From Bacillus sp. OV166 (GTDB taxonomy: Bacteria; Bacillota; Bacilli; Bacillales; Cytobacillaceae): DNA of 64,000 nucleotides. The stretch spans positions 1,249,001-1,313,000 of the forward strand of contig NZ_FXWM01000001.1 in assembly GCF_900177675.1 (NCBI RefSeq). The letters run 5' to 3'. Under the pieces are notes generated by a model. It searched no databases. It was given only the letters and a program-made list of their open reading frames with translations, and was not told the origin of the DNA. Shown one piece after another: positions 50,066-54,329 of this stretch (positions within the stretch are counted from its first letter, which is position 1; each line of letters begins with the position of its first letter). Made by a program: the position numbers and the translations under genes.

Positions 50066-50078
50066 TTGGAACAAACAA

Positions 50079-50112
50079 GAAAGGGGCTTACTCTAGGTAA
50101 GTCCTTTTTTTG
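50079..50112 (+). terminator. terminator of the permease gene
   Basis: AAAGGGGCTTAC pairs with GTAAGTCCTTT imperfectly, followed by a T run. Confidence 0.75.
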
Positions 50113-50252
50113 TTTGTTTGATTTTATCGAAAAATGTCGAAACTCATCGCTTTTACAAAAATAAAGTAATTTAAACATAAGAAAGATGATAAAATAGGAG
50201 CAGGTTTTTTATCTAATTTAATACAAGATGATCAGATTGAGGAGAAACAAAC

Positions 50253-51500
50253 ATGAAAGAAGGCATCAACAATACGAAGCTTTTATTTGAAGAGAGAAAG
50301 GCAATAACACTGTTTTTATGGTTATTTTACTTTATGTTTTATTCGTTTGATATTTTCTATAATTATATTAGACCTCACTTAAATGACCAGGAAAGTCAAT
50401 TTGATACAGAGAGAGTTGGTCTAGGAATTTGGTTATATATATTAATCCTTGCTTTGTTGCCGTTTGCTATTTACTTTATTAAAAAGGGAAATCCTTACAT
50501 TGTTAAATATATCTACATCATTAGCTATATCGGTATTGATATTTTGGACACCCTATTAGAAATTTTAGGAACGACAGCTTCTTATGCTTCAGGAAATATC
50601 GTGGAAGTATTATTTGTTCTATTTAGTCCTATTTTTGTAAATAAAAAATATTTCTGGGTTGTTTCGTTGGGGATGATAGGGAAGGAATTATTGTTAGGAT
50701 TAATTTTACAAGATTTAAACGTATTAATTCCAACAGTTATCTATGTCATCTTATCAGTGATAGCCTATATTTTAGTGATACGCTTTAATTCCTATATTCA
50801 AACCTTGACAACCGTTTACGAAGAACTACGACAAAAAGAAAAGCTGGCTGTTATTGGTCAAATGGCTGCGGCAATCGGCCATGAAATACGGAATCCCCTA
50901 TCATCATTAAAGGGCTTTACACAACTGCAGCAGGAACGGTACCCAAACACAAACGATTATTATCCCATTATGATACAGGAAATCGACCGGATTAATTCCA
51001 TTGTTAATGATCTGATGTACATTGGAAAACCAAGAGTAATCAAATTTGAAAAGGCAAGTATTGAAGAAATAATTGCTTATACATTATCCATTACGCAACA
51101 ACAGGCCGAAAGACAAGGAGTAATTGTTGAAACAATAATGGCTGGCCCCTTACCACCTCTTGATTGTGATGATAAACAATTAAAACAAGTATTTATTAAT
51201 TTGATAAAAAATGCGATCGAAGCAATGCCTGAGGGCGGTAGGATAGAAATACGTGTTAAAGTATTAGAAAAACACACACTGTCCGTTTCAATTCAAGATG
51301 AGGGGTGTGGAATTGCTGATGAGAATATCCTAAATCTTGGAGAACCATTTTTTACTACAAAAACGGATGGAACAGGCTTAGGCTTAATGGTTACAGATCA
51401 AATAATTAAGGATCACAGGGGTGCGATGAAAATAAAAAGTATTATTGATAAAGGAACACGAGTAATTGTAACTTTACCGATATTACAAATAGATAAATAG
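50253..51500 (+). CDS. membrane sensor histidine kinase with the shared six-helix sensor domain
   Basis: A 415-residue kinase. Residues ~15-185 form a six-helix membrane domain with the block ASYASGNIVEVLFVLFSPIF and KKYFWVVSLGM. A HisKA domain follows with H210 in AAIGHEIRNPLSSLKGFTQLQ, then HATPase with NLIKNAIEAMPEGG, DEGCGI and GTGLGL. The kinase half is of the KinA-E/sporulation type and has no partner regulator gene nearby. The membrane half is clearly homologous to that of the HD-GYP protein encoded next. Starts at an ATG after GAGGAG. Confidence 0.85.
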   Translation: MKEGINNTKLLFEERKAITLFLWLFYFMFYSFDIFYNYIRPHLNDQESQFDTERVGLGIWLYILILALLPFAIYFIKKGNPYIVKYIYIISYIGIDILDTLLEILGTTASYASGNIVEVLFVLFSPIFVNKKYFWVVSLGMIGKELLLGLILQDLNVLIPTVIYVILSVIAYILVIRFNSYIQTLTTVYEELRQKEKLAVIGQMAAAIGHEIRNPLSSLKGFTQLQQERYPNTNDYYPIMIQEIDRINSIVNDLMYIGKPRVIKFEKASIEEIIAYTLSITQQQAERQGVIVETIMAGPLPPLDCDDKQLKQVFINLIKNAIEAMPEGGRIEIRVKVLEKHTLSVSIQDEGCGIADENILNLGEPFFTTKTDGTGLGLMVTDQIIKDHRGAMKIKSIIDKGTRVIVTLPILQIDK

Positions 51501-51696: not shown

Positions 51697-52860
51697 ATGT
51701 TACCTAATGAAGAAATAAGAACTGTTAAATGGTTTCTTTTATTTTTTTATATAATTCTTGTAGGTTATGATTTTTTTTATTACTATCTTTTCCCAGCCTT
51801 CATAGAACATGAAGAAGTGGGCCCGCCTAATAAATTTTTTTATTTAACTTATGTCCTTTTAATAATATTAATTCCAATAGCATATTATTTAAATAAGCGG
51901 AATAAGCAAGCTTCAATAAAATACGTATTTTTTACAAGCTATCTATTGGTTACTTTTATTGTGGATATCTTATCCTTCTATGGAAGGGGAGCGTCTTACA
52001 AAAGTGGGAATTTAATAGAAGTGTTTTTACTTTTATCACTACCTCTTTTCCTTAGTAGAAAATATTTTTGGCTAGTAAGTTTAGGTGTTACAGCAAGATA
52101 TTTATTCGTTGGTATTATATTAAAGACTTCTTATGTAATAATCCCGATTATTTTAATAGCTGTACTGTCTATCATGGCATTTTTTTTATTAGTTCGTTTT
52201 CAGGGATACGTAAAAGCGATAAGTACTTCATACGACAAACAATTAGAAGGAATTGTAAAAGGTGTTATTGCTACTCTGGAGTTAAAGGATCCGTATACTA
52301 AGGGACATAGTGAAAGAGTAGCCAGTTATGCTTTGTTGTTAGCAAAGGAAATAGGTAAGCTTTCTAAAGATGAGCAAAAATCATTTTATTATGCATGTTT
52401 ATTACATGATATAGGAAAAGTTCATATCCCTGACCGTATTCTAATGAAACCAGGGAAGCTGACAAACGATGAATTTGAAATAATAAAATCACATCCAGTT
52501 GTTGGTGCTGAAGCAGTTGATAATGTCGAGGGGATTAAAGGTAGTCTTTCTGTTATTCGTTCGCATCATGAACGTTGGGATGGTAAAGGGTATCCTGATC
52601 AATTAAAAGGAGAAGAAATCCCCTTCCTTGCTAGAGTGGCTGCAGTTGCAGATGCTTTTGATGCAATGACATCTTCTCGATCTTATCGAGCAGCAATGCC
52701 AGTTGAAGTAGCCTATCAACGCATCATTGACGGAAAAGGTTCCCAATTTGATCCCATTTTAGTGGAAGAATTCAAAAAGGTATATCCAGCATGGATTAAA
52801 TTTCATGAAAAATATCCATGGTTAAAAGAATGGGAATTTCCTAAGGAGGTGGATTTATGA
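51697..52860 (+). CDS. membrane HD-GYP phosphodiesterase with the shared sensor domain
   Basis: A 387-residue protein: six-helix membrane sensor (about 10-180) with ASYKSGNLIEVFLLLSLPLF and RKYFWLVSLGV, aligning with the kinase upstream. A cytoplasmic HD-GYP domain follows: GHSERVASYA, LLHDIGK (H237, D238), SHPVVGAE, SHHERWDGKGYP (GYP 298-300) and VAAVADAFDAMTSSRSYR. HD-GYP enzymes hydrolyse cyclic di-nucleotides such as c-di-GMP; the key residues are intact. I start at the ATG at 51697, five bases after GGAGG; the frame stays open upstream to 51604. Its stop codon overlaps the start of the 24-codon gene. Confidence 0.85.
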   Translation: MLPNEEIRTVKWFLLFFYIILVGYDFFYYYLFPAFIEHEEVGPPNKFFYLTYVLLIILIPIAYYLNKRNKQASIKYVFFTSYLLVTFIVDILSFYGRGASYKSGNLIEVFLLLSLPLFLSRKYFWLVSLGVTARYLFVGIILKTSYVIIPIILIAVLSIMAFFLLVRFQGYVKAISTSYDKQLEGIVKGVIATLELKDPYTKGHSERVASYALLLAKEIGKLSKDEQKSFYYACLLHDIGKVHIPDRILMKPGKLTNDEFEIIKSHPVVGAEAVDNVEGIKGSLSVIRSHHERWDGKGYPDQLKGEEIPFLARVAAVADAFDAMTSSRSYRAAMPVEVAYQRIIDGKGSQFDPILVEEFKKVYPAWIKFHEKYPWLKEWEFPKEVDL

Positions 52861-52931
52861 AAATCCGAAAGCTGAAAAAGGTAAAAACAACTTGCTGGTG
52901 GTGTCAATTTGTTCCTGGTTGGAAAGGTTAA
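52857..52931 (+). CDS. 24-residue Trp/Cys-rich peptide gene
   Basis: ATG at 52857 overlaps the TGA of the HD-GYP gene (ATGA) and has an excellent AAGGAGGTG five to six bases upstream. The frame runs 24 codons to TAA at 52931. The first ten residues are strongly basic (five Lys, one Arg); the rest reads TTCWWCQFVPGWKG, with a CxxC pair enclosing two Trp and a further Trp near the end. It is followed by a hairpin and then by a PqqD-M50 membrane peptidase. This is the layout of a ribosomal peptide precursor with its processing protein. I do not recognise the peptide. Cyclisation, disulfide formation or other modification is speculation. Confidence 0.7.
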   Translation: MKIRKLKKVKTTCWWCQFVPGWKG

Positions 52932-52936
52932 AAAAA

Positions 52937-52968
52937 AAAGGATGCTAGCGAAAAGCTAAGCATCCTTT
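52937..52968 (+). terminator. hairpin between the peptide gene and the peptidase gene
   Basis: AAAGGATGC-TAGC pairs with GCTA-GCATCCTTT (one bulged A) over a GAAAA loop. The tail is short (TTTCTT). Partial termination here would give more peptide than peptidase message. Confidence 0.65.
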
Positions 52969-53002
52969 CTTAATGATAAAATATGAGATAAAGGGTGTTA
53001 AT

Positions 53003-54184
53003 ATGAACCTAACACTTCATTCGCGTCTTTTGTTGGTCCCAGTCAATATTCGCAAGGATAAAAAACATTATATCGTTGAAGATATTGTATTAGGCGAGTT
53101 TTATGAGATGCCGAGGGTTTGTATTGATGCAATCCATTTAATCAACAACGGTGGGTCGATAGAGGAAATTGAACGGGTGCTTAAAGATAAATATCCTATT
53201 GATGAAGTAGATATGCTCGATTTTGCCGAACAATTACTAATTATGGGCTTGATAGGTGAAGTTGATGGTGTAAAAGTTGAATTGAAGGAAAAGAAAAAGA
53301 AAGACTTAGGCCTTTTATGGATTTCACCAAAGATCGGGGAGTTTTTCTTTAATAAGGCTGCATACCTTGTTTATTTCACTTTATTGCTAGTTAATGTGTT
53401 TATCCTTCTATCCCATCCATGCTTATTTCCGCACTATAAGGATTTGTTTGTTTTTGATTTAATGATTTTGAATATCCCGACTTGGATGGGAATTACGATT
53501 ATCCTTGTCTTTATTCATGAGTTTGGCCACATATTAGCGATGAGGGCTCAAAATCTTCCGACTAAGCTGGAGGTCGGGCATCGATTAATACTTGTTGTCC
53601 TTGAGACTGATATGTCATCGGTTTGGAAACTTCCTTCTAATAAGCGGAATGTTTTATTTCTGGCGGGCCTTTGCTTTGATACACTTATTCTTTCATGCGC
53701 ATTAATTAGCCATCTAATTTTTGCAAATGGGTCAGAGATTTTCCTTGGTGTTATGAATGTAGTGGTCTTGGATACATTTATTCGAATGGTTTACCAAGGC
53801 TTCATTTATATGAAAACCGATTTATATTACTTCATTGAAAATGTATCGGGCTGCTATAACTTAATGGAAAATGCCCAGCAAGCGATAAGGAAGAAGCTTT
53901 CATTTCTCAACTCACCATCAATACAAGAGGTTGTTTTTGAGGGAGAAAAAAAGATAGTTTTTTTATATTCAATCTTTTATTTTGTCGGAGTCATCCTGAC
54001 AGTTATCATATATACATTTTTTTATGTCCCCCAATTATTATTTGCATGGAAAAGAATTCTTCCTGGTTTTTCTCAAGGACCGTCCTCGCTTCCATTCTGG
54101 GATGCAATACTTTTTACCTTGCAAATACTAATTGGTTTATTGCTTCTTCTATATTCCTGGCGGAAAAAGTACACTCAAAGATAG
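53003..54184 (+). CDS. membrane zinc peptidase (M50-like) with N-terminal PqqD-like domain
   Basis: A 393-residue protein. Residues ~10-95 resemble PqqD-type peptide-recognition domains (YIVEDIVLGEFYEMPRVCIDAIHLI, SIEEIERVLKDKYPIDEVDMLDFAEQLLIMGLIGEV). After it come about six to seven membrane helices. The zinc motif HEFGH is at 172-176, and the distal MKTDLYYFIENVSGCYNL (Asp273) matches the third-ligand motif of 'peptide zinc metalloprotease' proteins that process or export RiPPs (YydH-like). The ATG at 53003 follows AAAGGGTG by five to six bases; 52973 is an in-frame alternative. The 24-residue peptide just upstream is the obvious candidate substrate. Confidence 0.82.
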   Translation: MNLTLHSRLLLVPVNIRKDKKHYIVEDIVLGEFYEMPRVCIDAIHLINNGGSIEEIERVLKDKYPIDEVDMLDFAEQLLIMGLIGEVDGVKVELKEKKKKDLGLLWISPKIGEFFFNKAAYLVYFTLLLVNVFILLSHPCLFPHYKDLFVFDLMILNIPTWMGITIILVFIHEFGHILAMRAQNLPTKLEVGHRLILVVLETDMSSVWKLPSNKRNVLFLAGLCFDTLILSCALISHLIFANGSEIFLGVMNVVVLDTFIRMVYQGFIYMKTDLYYFIENVSGCYNLMENAQQAIRKKLSFLNSPSIQEVVFEGEKKIVFLYSIFYFVGVILTVIIYTFFYVPQLLFAWKRILPGFSQGPSSLPFWDAILFTLQILIGLLLLLYSWRKKYTQR

Positions 54185-54273: not shown

Positions 54274-54329
54274 TAACACCACCGTTTTTCTTACAATAAG
54301 AGTAAGAAAAACGGTGGTGTTATTTTTTT
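54274..54329 (+). terminator. 21-bp-stem terminator in the leader of the nitrate reductase operon
   Basis: The arms 54274-54294 and 54302-54322 are exact reverse complements (inner part CTTAC/GTAAG, outer part TAACACC/GGTGTTA), followed by seven T. The ribosome site GGAGGG starts one or two bases after the T run. It either ends the peptidase unit or attenuates the operon. Confidence 0.85.

Follow-up and report, generated by a model that had tools for sequence, protein, structure and literature searches.

The agr (AgrBDCA) and ComQXPA systems encode a polymorphic peptide adjacent to a co-evolving multi-helix membrane receptor. A comparable arrangement occurs in a 64,000-nucleotide stretch of the genome of Bacillus sp. 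OV166 (contig NZ_FXWM01000001.1, positions 1,249,001 to 1,313,000; hereafter the window, from whose first letter all positions are counted), where a 24-codon gene lies between the genes of a MASE12-HD-GYP membrane protein and an M50 membrane protease. Two further systems bear on this locus. In EpeXEPAB (YydF) of B. subtilis, an M50 membrane protease is thought to cut and export the peptide (PMC10885120, PMC7614699), and in the SHP/Rgg system of streptococci a short pheromone is trimmed by the membrane metalloprotease Eep (PMC13361665). In ComRS, too, pheromone and sensor are known to co-evolve (PMC8605241).

Like agr and ComQXPA, the locus places a polymorphic peptide beside the gene of a co-evolving multi-helix membrane protein, the candidate receptor. 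In contrast to those systems, this covarying protein has an HD-GYP output in place of a kinase plus response regulator; a Pfam search of the operon's proteins gave no AgrB- or ComQ-type match, and the candidate for processing here is an M50 protein with a predicted leader-binding RRE domain. With EpeXEPAB the locus shares a small ribosomal peptide and an M50 membrane protease. It differs in having no conserved radical SAM epimerase or ABC immunity pair, an RRE domain fused to the protease, an HD-GYP partner and a hypervariable tail that co-varies with the sensor. No radical SAM epimerase is found among the genes of the window's operon and its nearest flanks, and no such family recurs over 18 loci that represent one genus each. 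As with Eep-processed SHP, a short pheromone, predicted here, goes with a membrane metalloprotease. While SHP/Rgg uses PptAB export, Opp import and cytoplasmic Rgg, the receptor proposed here is a membrane cyclic di-GMP (c-di-GMP) phosphodiesterase; the operon's proteins gave no TPR match of the kind expected for an RRNPP/Rgg-type cytoplasmic receptor, and the constant neighbour is MASE12-HD-GYP.

The 24-residue peptide is probably the precursor of a species-specific pheromone that would be matured by the RRE-site-2 protease (S2P) and sensed by the MASE12-HD-GYP phosphodiesterase. The peptide family, its gene order, the constant leader, the hypervariable tail, the co-variation of tail and sensor, the predicted domain folds and a conserved TGTCGAA element were computed directly and are described below.

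The peptide family and its constant neighbours

The 24-codon open reading frame (52857-52931, + strand) encodes MKIRKLKKVKTTCWWCQFVPGWKG behind the ribosome site AAGGAGGTG, and its start overlaps the TGA of the upstream HD-GYP gene. These coordinates and the overlap, first described in an earlier note made from the letters of this DNA, were confirmed, and the frame is conserved in a family of 86 peptides. The basic first half and CWWC-bearing second half that the note saw in the window's peptide recur throughout: the first ten residues are near-invariant and basic, and the core reads CWWC in 78 peptides and CW[ILV]C in 8. The tails are 2-10 residues long, take 81 distinct forms and carry an aromatic residue at tail position 2 in 76 cases. 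In the window, residues 1-12 form the leader, residues 13-16 the CWWC core and residues 17-24 the tail, QFVPGWKG. Codon-position entropy over leader codons 2-10 of 69 genes averages 1.11 at the third position, 0.27 at the first and 0.09 at the second. Variation of the leader thus falls mainly on the third codon position, which argues that selection acts on the protein. The note had named conservation in relatives, selection on the frame and a PqqD match of the peptidase as points on which its reading could fail, and all three came out in its favour, the last by structure and not by sequence. No Pfam or NCBIfam model matches the peptide.

Whether the peptide always sits between the HD-GYP and M50 genes had been raised as a check, and this order is found in 45 of 45 loci of a first set drawn from the window's genus, nearby Bacillus and three other families. 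Two loci had been dropped from this set, L086 (genome G053; a distant M50, no peptide) and L087 (G059; a fragment). In all 24 order-wide loci the peptide gene is immediately preceded by the HD-GYP gene and immediately followed by the M50 gene, and the order is the same in 14 of 14 further loci, one with its HD-GYP gene cut by a contig end. Within the genus, 35 of 36 genomes, the window's own counted, carry the M50 gene in one copy each; G006 is without it. Of 397 genomes from the order, 30 matched a degenerate DNA pattern for the leader and 3 its reversed control, and 27 of the 30 loci then read encode a CWWC peptide. A profile search with the M50 alignment returned 60 of the 397 at 1e-10, 43 of these above 450 bits. 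All 43 have the peptide, including 16 missed by the strict leader pattern, and in every one it precedes the M50 gene with a MASE12-HD-GYP gene upstream. Across the 18 genera, MASE12 proteins and M50 alone recur in all loci, and no other family of at least 120 residues, the optional MASE12 kinase aside, occurs in more than 3; accordingly, the absence of an adjacent modifying enzyme gene noted for the window holds for conserved neighbours in all of them.

Farther afield, the same peptide occurs in three genomes from another order of the class. Among 398 genomes sampled across the phylum, 2 pass an M50 limit of 1e-90, one being the genome of the window and the other a member of the same family. 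Viral contigs held no exact match to the peptide pattern, and plasmids no close copy (28 records, every one below 60% identity). MASE12 was found in 25 of 199 order genomes searched. The M50 module is present in 22 of these; in the remaining three, MASE12 belongs to a kinase that stands alone, and the 3.5 kb read contain no CWWC peptide. Both MASE12 proteins of the window's genome are encoded at the locus.

The MASE12-HD-GYP protein (51697-52860, + strand) is modelled as six helices followed by an HD-GYP domain (predicted local distance difference test score 77) whose fold matches the solved structures 4mcw, PA4781 and DvhD. In its active site (HDxGK, HHExxDGxGYP), D238, G240, K241, H290-G296 and G298-P300 are invariant over 69 aligned rows, and H237 is kept in at least 90% of them. 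We propose that this protein is both a c-di-GMP phosphodiesterase and the peptide receptor. Weak PADLOC matches of its HD domain to Cas3/Cas10 HD are read as shared fold.

Downstream of the peptide gene come a hairpin and the gene of a membrane zinc peptidase, as the note had reported. The hairpin (52937-52968, + strand; -18.1 kcal/mol, z -5.97) has a T-rich stretch behind it, and the peptidase (53003-54184, + strand) carries HEFGH and KTDLYY motifs. For the start of the peptidase, ATG 53003, giving 393 residues, is more likely than the in-frame ATG at 52973, since alignments to most relatives begin only at residue 6-11 of the frame from 52973, a stretch in which many of them carry a stop codon. 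H172, E173, H176, K271, D273 and Y275 are invariant over 68 homologues, HExxH falls within a predicted helix (154-182), and D273 of KTDLYY is a candidate third zinc ligand. The predicted structure combines a winged-helix, leader-binding RRE fold (residues 7-90) with an S2P fold, and the protein is thus predicted to be a PqqD-like RRE domain fused to a site-2 protease. The PqqD-like N-terminal domain that the note had assigned is therefore upheld by predicted structure and not by sequence, where the PqqD-type match to NF050069 reaches 16.9 bits against a curated cut-off of 110. The Pfam M50 score is 21.7 bits, under the cut-off of 27.2. In the model, residues 7-90 resemble the leader-binding RRE proteins TbiB1, PqqD and WgkC; unlike these, the RRE here is fused to a site-2 protease, has no modification enzyme beside it and stays below the NCBIfam cut-off. 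A sequence search with the M50 profile matched no PDB chain, and PADLOC assigned the protein to no family.

Co-variation of the peptide tail with the HD-GYP sensor

The peptide tail and the MASE12 sensor evolve together, which is in itself no proof of contact. Over 68 loci (L043 alone dropped), the correlation of tail and sensor is 0.315 (p 0.001) once the catalytic domain and M50 are controlled for, versus 0.044 (p 0.17) for the tail and the catalytic domain given the sensor, -0.076 for the M50 membrane part and -0.003 for the RRE. When the sensor is divided by region, with helices and loops as interpreted from the structure model, the correlation is highest in transmembrane helix 1 (TM1) and the first outer loop (0.24 each), followed by TM4 (0.20), TM3, TM5 and TM6 (0.15-0.17), the third outer loop (0.13) and TM2 (0.11). 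It is low in the cytoplasmic N-terminus (0.05), the linker (0.01) and the HD domain (0.07). Plain linkage would be expected to favour the catalytic 3′ part, the closer of the two to the peptide gene, and yet this part correlates less than the sensor; we therefore disfavour linkage as the source of the co-variation.

The same protein stands out when loci are sorted into two peptide classes, A and B. Classes were assigned first by the form of the CWWC core and later, before a 37-locus test, by residue 11 (T or not). Under this rule L076 and L080 changed to class B when their HD-GYP identities were already known, so that the clean separation of the classes on the HD-GYP tree is in part post hoc. 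As the rule was settled late, class-free tests matter most: the within-class Mantel tests depend less on it, and the 68-locus test not at all. In the 37-locus set (L138 added; L043, a near-duplicate, five distant or out-of-genus loci and three with cut kinase genes dropped), mean identity of the HD-GYP sensor is 0.60 inside each of the two classes and 0.38 between them, and neither M50 nor the histidine kinase shows such a split. Each part of the HD-GYP protein requires 1 class change on its tree, M50 requires 5 and the kinase 8, where shuffled labels average about 11 on each. Counts as low as these arose in 0 of 999 shuffles for HD-GYP, 0 for M50 and 38 for the kinase.

Expression, proposed mechanism and rival explanations

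The MASE12 histidine kinase (HisKA and HATPase_c; 50253-51500, + strand) is an optional member of the operon, found directly upstream in 46 of 69 loci. Among the 24 order-wide loci it is on the peptide strand in 11 and on the opposite strand in one. Over the 300 bases that precede the kinase gene, TGTCGAA is more frequent than any other 7-mer: it occurs in 35 of the 46 kinase-first operons, 75-132 nt from the kinase start codon; 300 permuted 7-mers averaged 0.63 in these operons, with a maximum of 15. We take TGTCGAA to be a Spo0A box. The window's copy (50135-50141), the sole one within 8 kb, is paired with an imperfect TATCGAA (50125-50131; the pair spans 50125-50141, + strand). The best model scores of the kinase are for AtoS, ZraS and KinD, all far under cut-off. 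In the window it has no response regulator gene as a neighbour, the usual situation for kinases of phosphorelays. Together, the Spo0A box and the orphan kinase suggest a circuit that acts at the stationary-phase decision on sporulation, biofilm or motility. A sigma-70-type consensus scan around the locus gave 16 matches (shuffles, mean 19.3). Sigma-H-like matches are few and above shuffles, at 3 of 53 before the kinase gene (0.2 shuffled) and 4 of 69 before the HD-GYP gene (0.3).

A GGATG...CATCC-like stem is present in the peptide-M50 gap of 58 of 68 loci, and 55 pass a stricter stem-plus-T test, so the gap hairpin may render the peptide message more abundant than the protease message. The terminator scan did not flag the window's hairpin. 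The stem, GGATGC...GCATCC, is near-constant over many genera, beyond what a plain terminator requires.

In the mechanism that we propose, Spo0A would control the operon, and the basic leader would stay inside the cell, docked on the RRE domain. The site-2 protease would cut in or near the hydrophobic T-CWWC stretch, and a product of about 6-14 residues with CWWC and the tail would leave the cell. This fragment would bind the membrane or outer part of MASE12 in cells of the same type, and binding would change c-di-GMP hydrolysis by the HD-GYP domain. Spo0A control, leader docking, cleavage, export, binding and c-di-GMP output are each inferred from the anatomy of the locus and the co-variation.

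Besides the post hoc element of the class split, several results weigh against this reading. The tail-sensor correlations are moderate in size. No signal comes from the second predicted outer loop (0.05, p 0.12), and some of the best single columns (N69, Y171, L194) lie outside the outer half. A nearest-neighbour check on 39 loci (L043 and L063 dropped) left out 9 with the same neighbour by sensor and by M50; in the rest, the neighbour by sensor has the closer-matching tail only 20 times and the neighbour by M50 10 times (p 0.049). With 5 changes and 0 of 999 shuffles, the M50 tree carries some class signal, less than HD-GYP. A residual correlation of the tail with the M50 membrane part given the HD-GYP sensor is seen over the 37 loci (0.13, p 0.02) and in class A (0.17, p 0.008), and is gone in the 68. 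The Spo0A box is present in just 4 of 23 loci without an upstream kinase, some of them on cut contigs. Lastly, no exporter family is common to the 18-genus loci, with an ABC ATPase nearby in 3 of 18.

The lack of a common exporter is what one would expect if the peptide were a small membrane subunit kept in its own cell, where it docks MASE12 and sets HD-GYP activity and the RRE-S2P protein degrades it as a reset, with no cell-to-cell signal. We regard this as unlikely, though it deserves serious weight. It predicts the tail-sensor co-variation equally well, and it suits the basic N-terminus with a short hydrophobic stretch and the overlap of the peptide gene with its neighbour (33 of 43 class A loci, 7 of 26 class B loci). 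It gives no obvious reason, however, for tails that differ almost species by species (81 of 86 distinct) while the docking leader stays fixed, and a fused leader-binding RRE fold is typical of precursor processing. The earlier note had supposed a signal sensed by both membrane proteins beside the peptide. The signal and the HD-GYP sensor's part in it have gained ground; the kinase's part has not. That the MASE12 kinase is the receptor, instead of or besides HD-GYP, is very doubtful: it belongs to the same sensor family, often lies directly upstream, and its sensor shows a raw correlation with the tail (0.16, p 0.003; class B, 0.30, p 0.008) that counts against HD-GYP as sole receptor, but this vanishes given the HD-GYP sensor (-0.04 overall, p 0.81; 0.11 in class B, p 0.15). 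Moreover, the 8 class changes on the kinase tree speak against it, as does gene placement: 13 of the 24 order-wide loci lack a kinase gene on the strand of the peptide, the opposite-strand copy being in one of these 13.

Two other proposals depart further from a pheromone. A RiPP (ribosomally synthesized and post-translationally modified peptide) bacteriocin cluster, with the peptide as toxin, M50 as leader peptidase or exporter and HD-GYP as a sensing or immunity part, would account for the RRE fold and the Cys/Trp-rich core, and M50 proteases do process epipeptides and pearlins (PMC10885120). Yet no modifying or immunity family is common to the 18 genera, the single copy per genome is kept nearly throughout the genus, and a conserved HD-GYP active site would be unusual for immunity. 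The bacteriocin-like product that had been the note's other suggestion has gained no support, and we judge it improbable. Almost no credence is left for a translated attenuator, or upstream open reading frame, in which M50 transcription is adjusted by tandem Trp/Cys codons together with the hairpin and the peptide itself serves no function. The CWWC codons do precede a hairpin with a T-rich 3′ side, but the leader Lys/Arg are among the most conserved residues, with synonymous changes dominating there, and variation in the tails goes with that of a protein domain whose gene lies upstream. We rejected the attenuator on these two grounds.

Most MASE-type membrane sensor domains have, to our knowledge, no known ligand, and little is understood of how outside cues set c-di-GMP in Gram-positive bacteria. 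The literature searches, with most subscription papers and all of bioRxiv outside their scope, turned up no description of this system and no paper on a KIRKLKK...CWWC peptide, a MASE12 peptide sensor or an HD-GYP pheromone receptor. We see an even case for and against a further class of Gram-positive peptide signalling, next to the two-component systems (agr, ComX) and those with internalised peptides (RRNPP), in which the receptor is a second-messenger enzyme, MASE12-HD-GYP, a species-specific CWWC peptide from RRE-S2P sets c-di-GMP directly under Spo0A, and peptide-receptor cassettes are swapped between species. If the pheromone reading is right, the locus names a candidate MASE12 ligand and supplies tens of naturally occurring peptide-receptor pairs on which specificity could be mapped. 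Kin-specific peptides would then address c-di-GMP directly and, via the Spo0A box, decisions on sporulation and biofilm, and a minimal RiPP-like machinery of leader-binding domain and intramembrane protease would serve pheromone making.

Surroundings and related loci

In the window, the MASE12 kinase, MASE12-HD-GYP, 24-codon and M50 genes follow one another on the + strand, the hairpin preceding the last. The terminator scan places terminator-like hairpins on both sides of the row, at 50071-50117 (+ strand, 3′ of an amino-acid permease gene) and 54275-54321 (+ strand, 3′ of the protease gene). The upstream flank of the row carries CstA and the permease, its downstream flank a molybdopterin oxidoreductase together with an iron-sulfur protein. 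The genome that holds the window comprises 7.1 Mb in two contigs, and its relatives carry the name Neobacillus for the most part and Bacillus otherwise. A completeness check gives this assembly 12% contamination and several relatives 9-13%.

Some genomes depart from the usual set of MASE12 proteins. G039 has one more away from the locus; two tandem MASE12-HD-GYP genes lie by one peptide in L127/L239 (G086), a receptor duplication; and two MASE12 kinase homologues lie near a single module in L053 and L054 (G012, G022). The lone MASE12 kinases of L241, L242 and L243 (G162, G099, G133), whose genomes have no M50 match, are possibly orphan or eavesdropping receptors.

Below the close M50 homologues lies a lower-scoring branch (at most 270 bits). 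The 18 loci of it that were read show neither a CWWC peptide nor a MASE12-HD-GYP neighbour; in L200, HD-GYP is matched weakly at a distance of 3.4 kb. Within this sister RRE-M50 branch (about 130-270 bits), the regions upstream of the M50 gene in L188, L190, L193, L207, L216 and L217 contain neither CWWC peptide nor MASE12. Several of its M50 genes sit just 3′ of an open reading frame that carries a CPTCG motif close to its end and may encode a different peptide-modifying partner. In L201 (G181), a 20-codon basic open reading frame, MKLKVKKLKAVKLPMFRWQT, with a ribosome-site-like stretch, lies about 70 nt before the frame of a distant M50 paralogue. As G181 also carries the CWWC system, this frame possibly represents a second peptide family.

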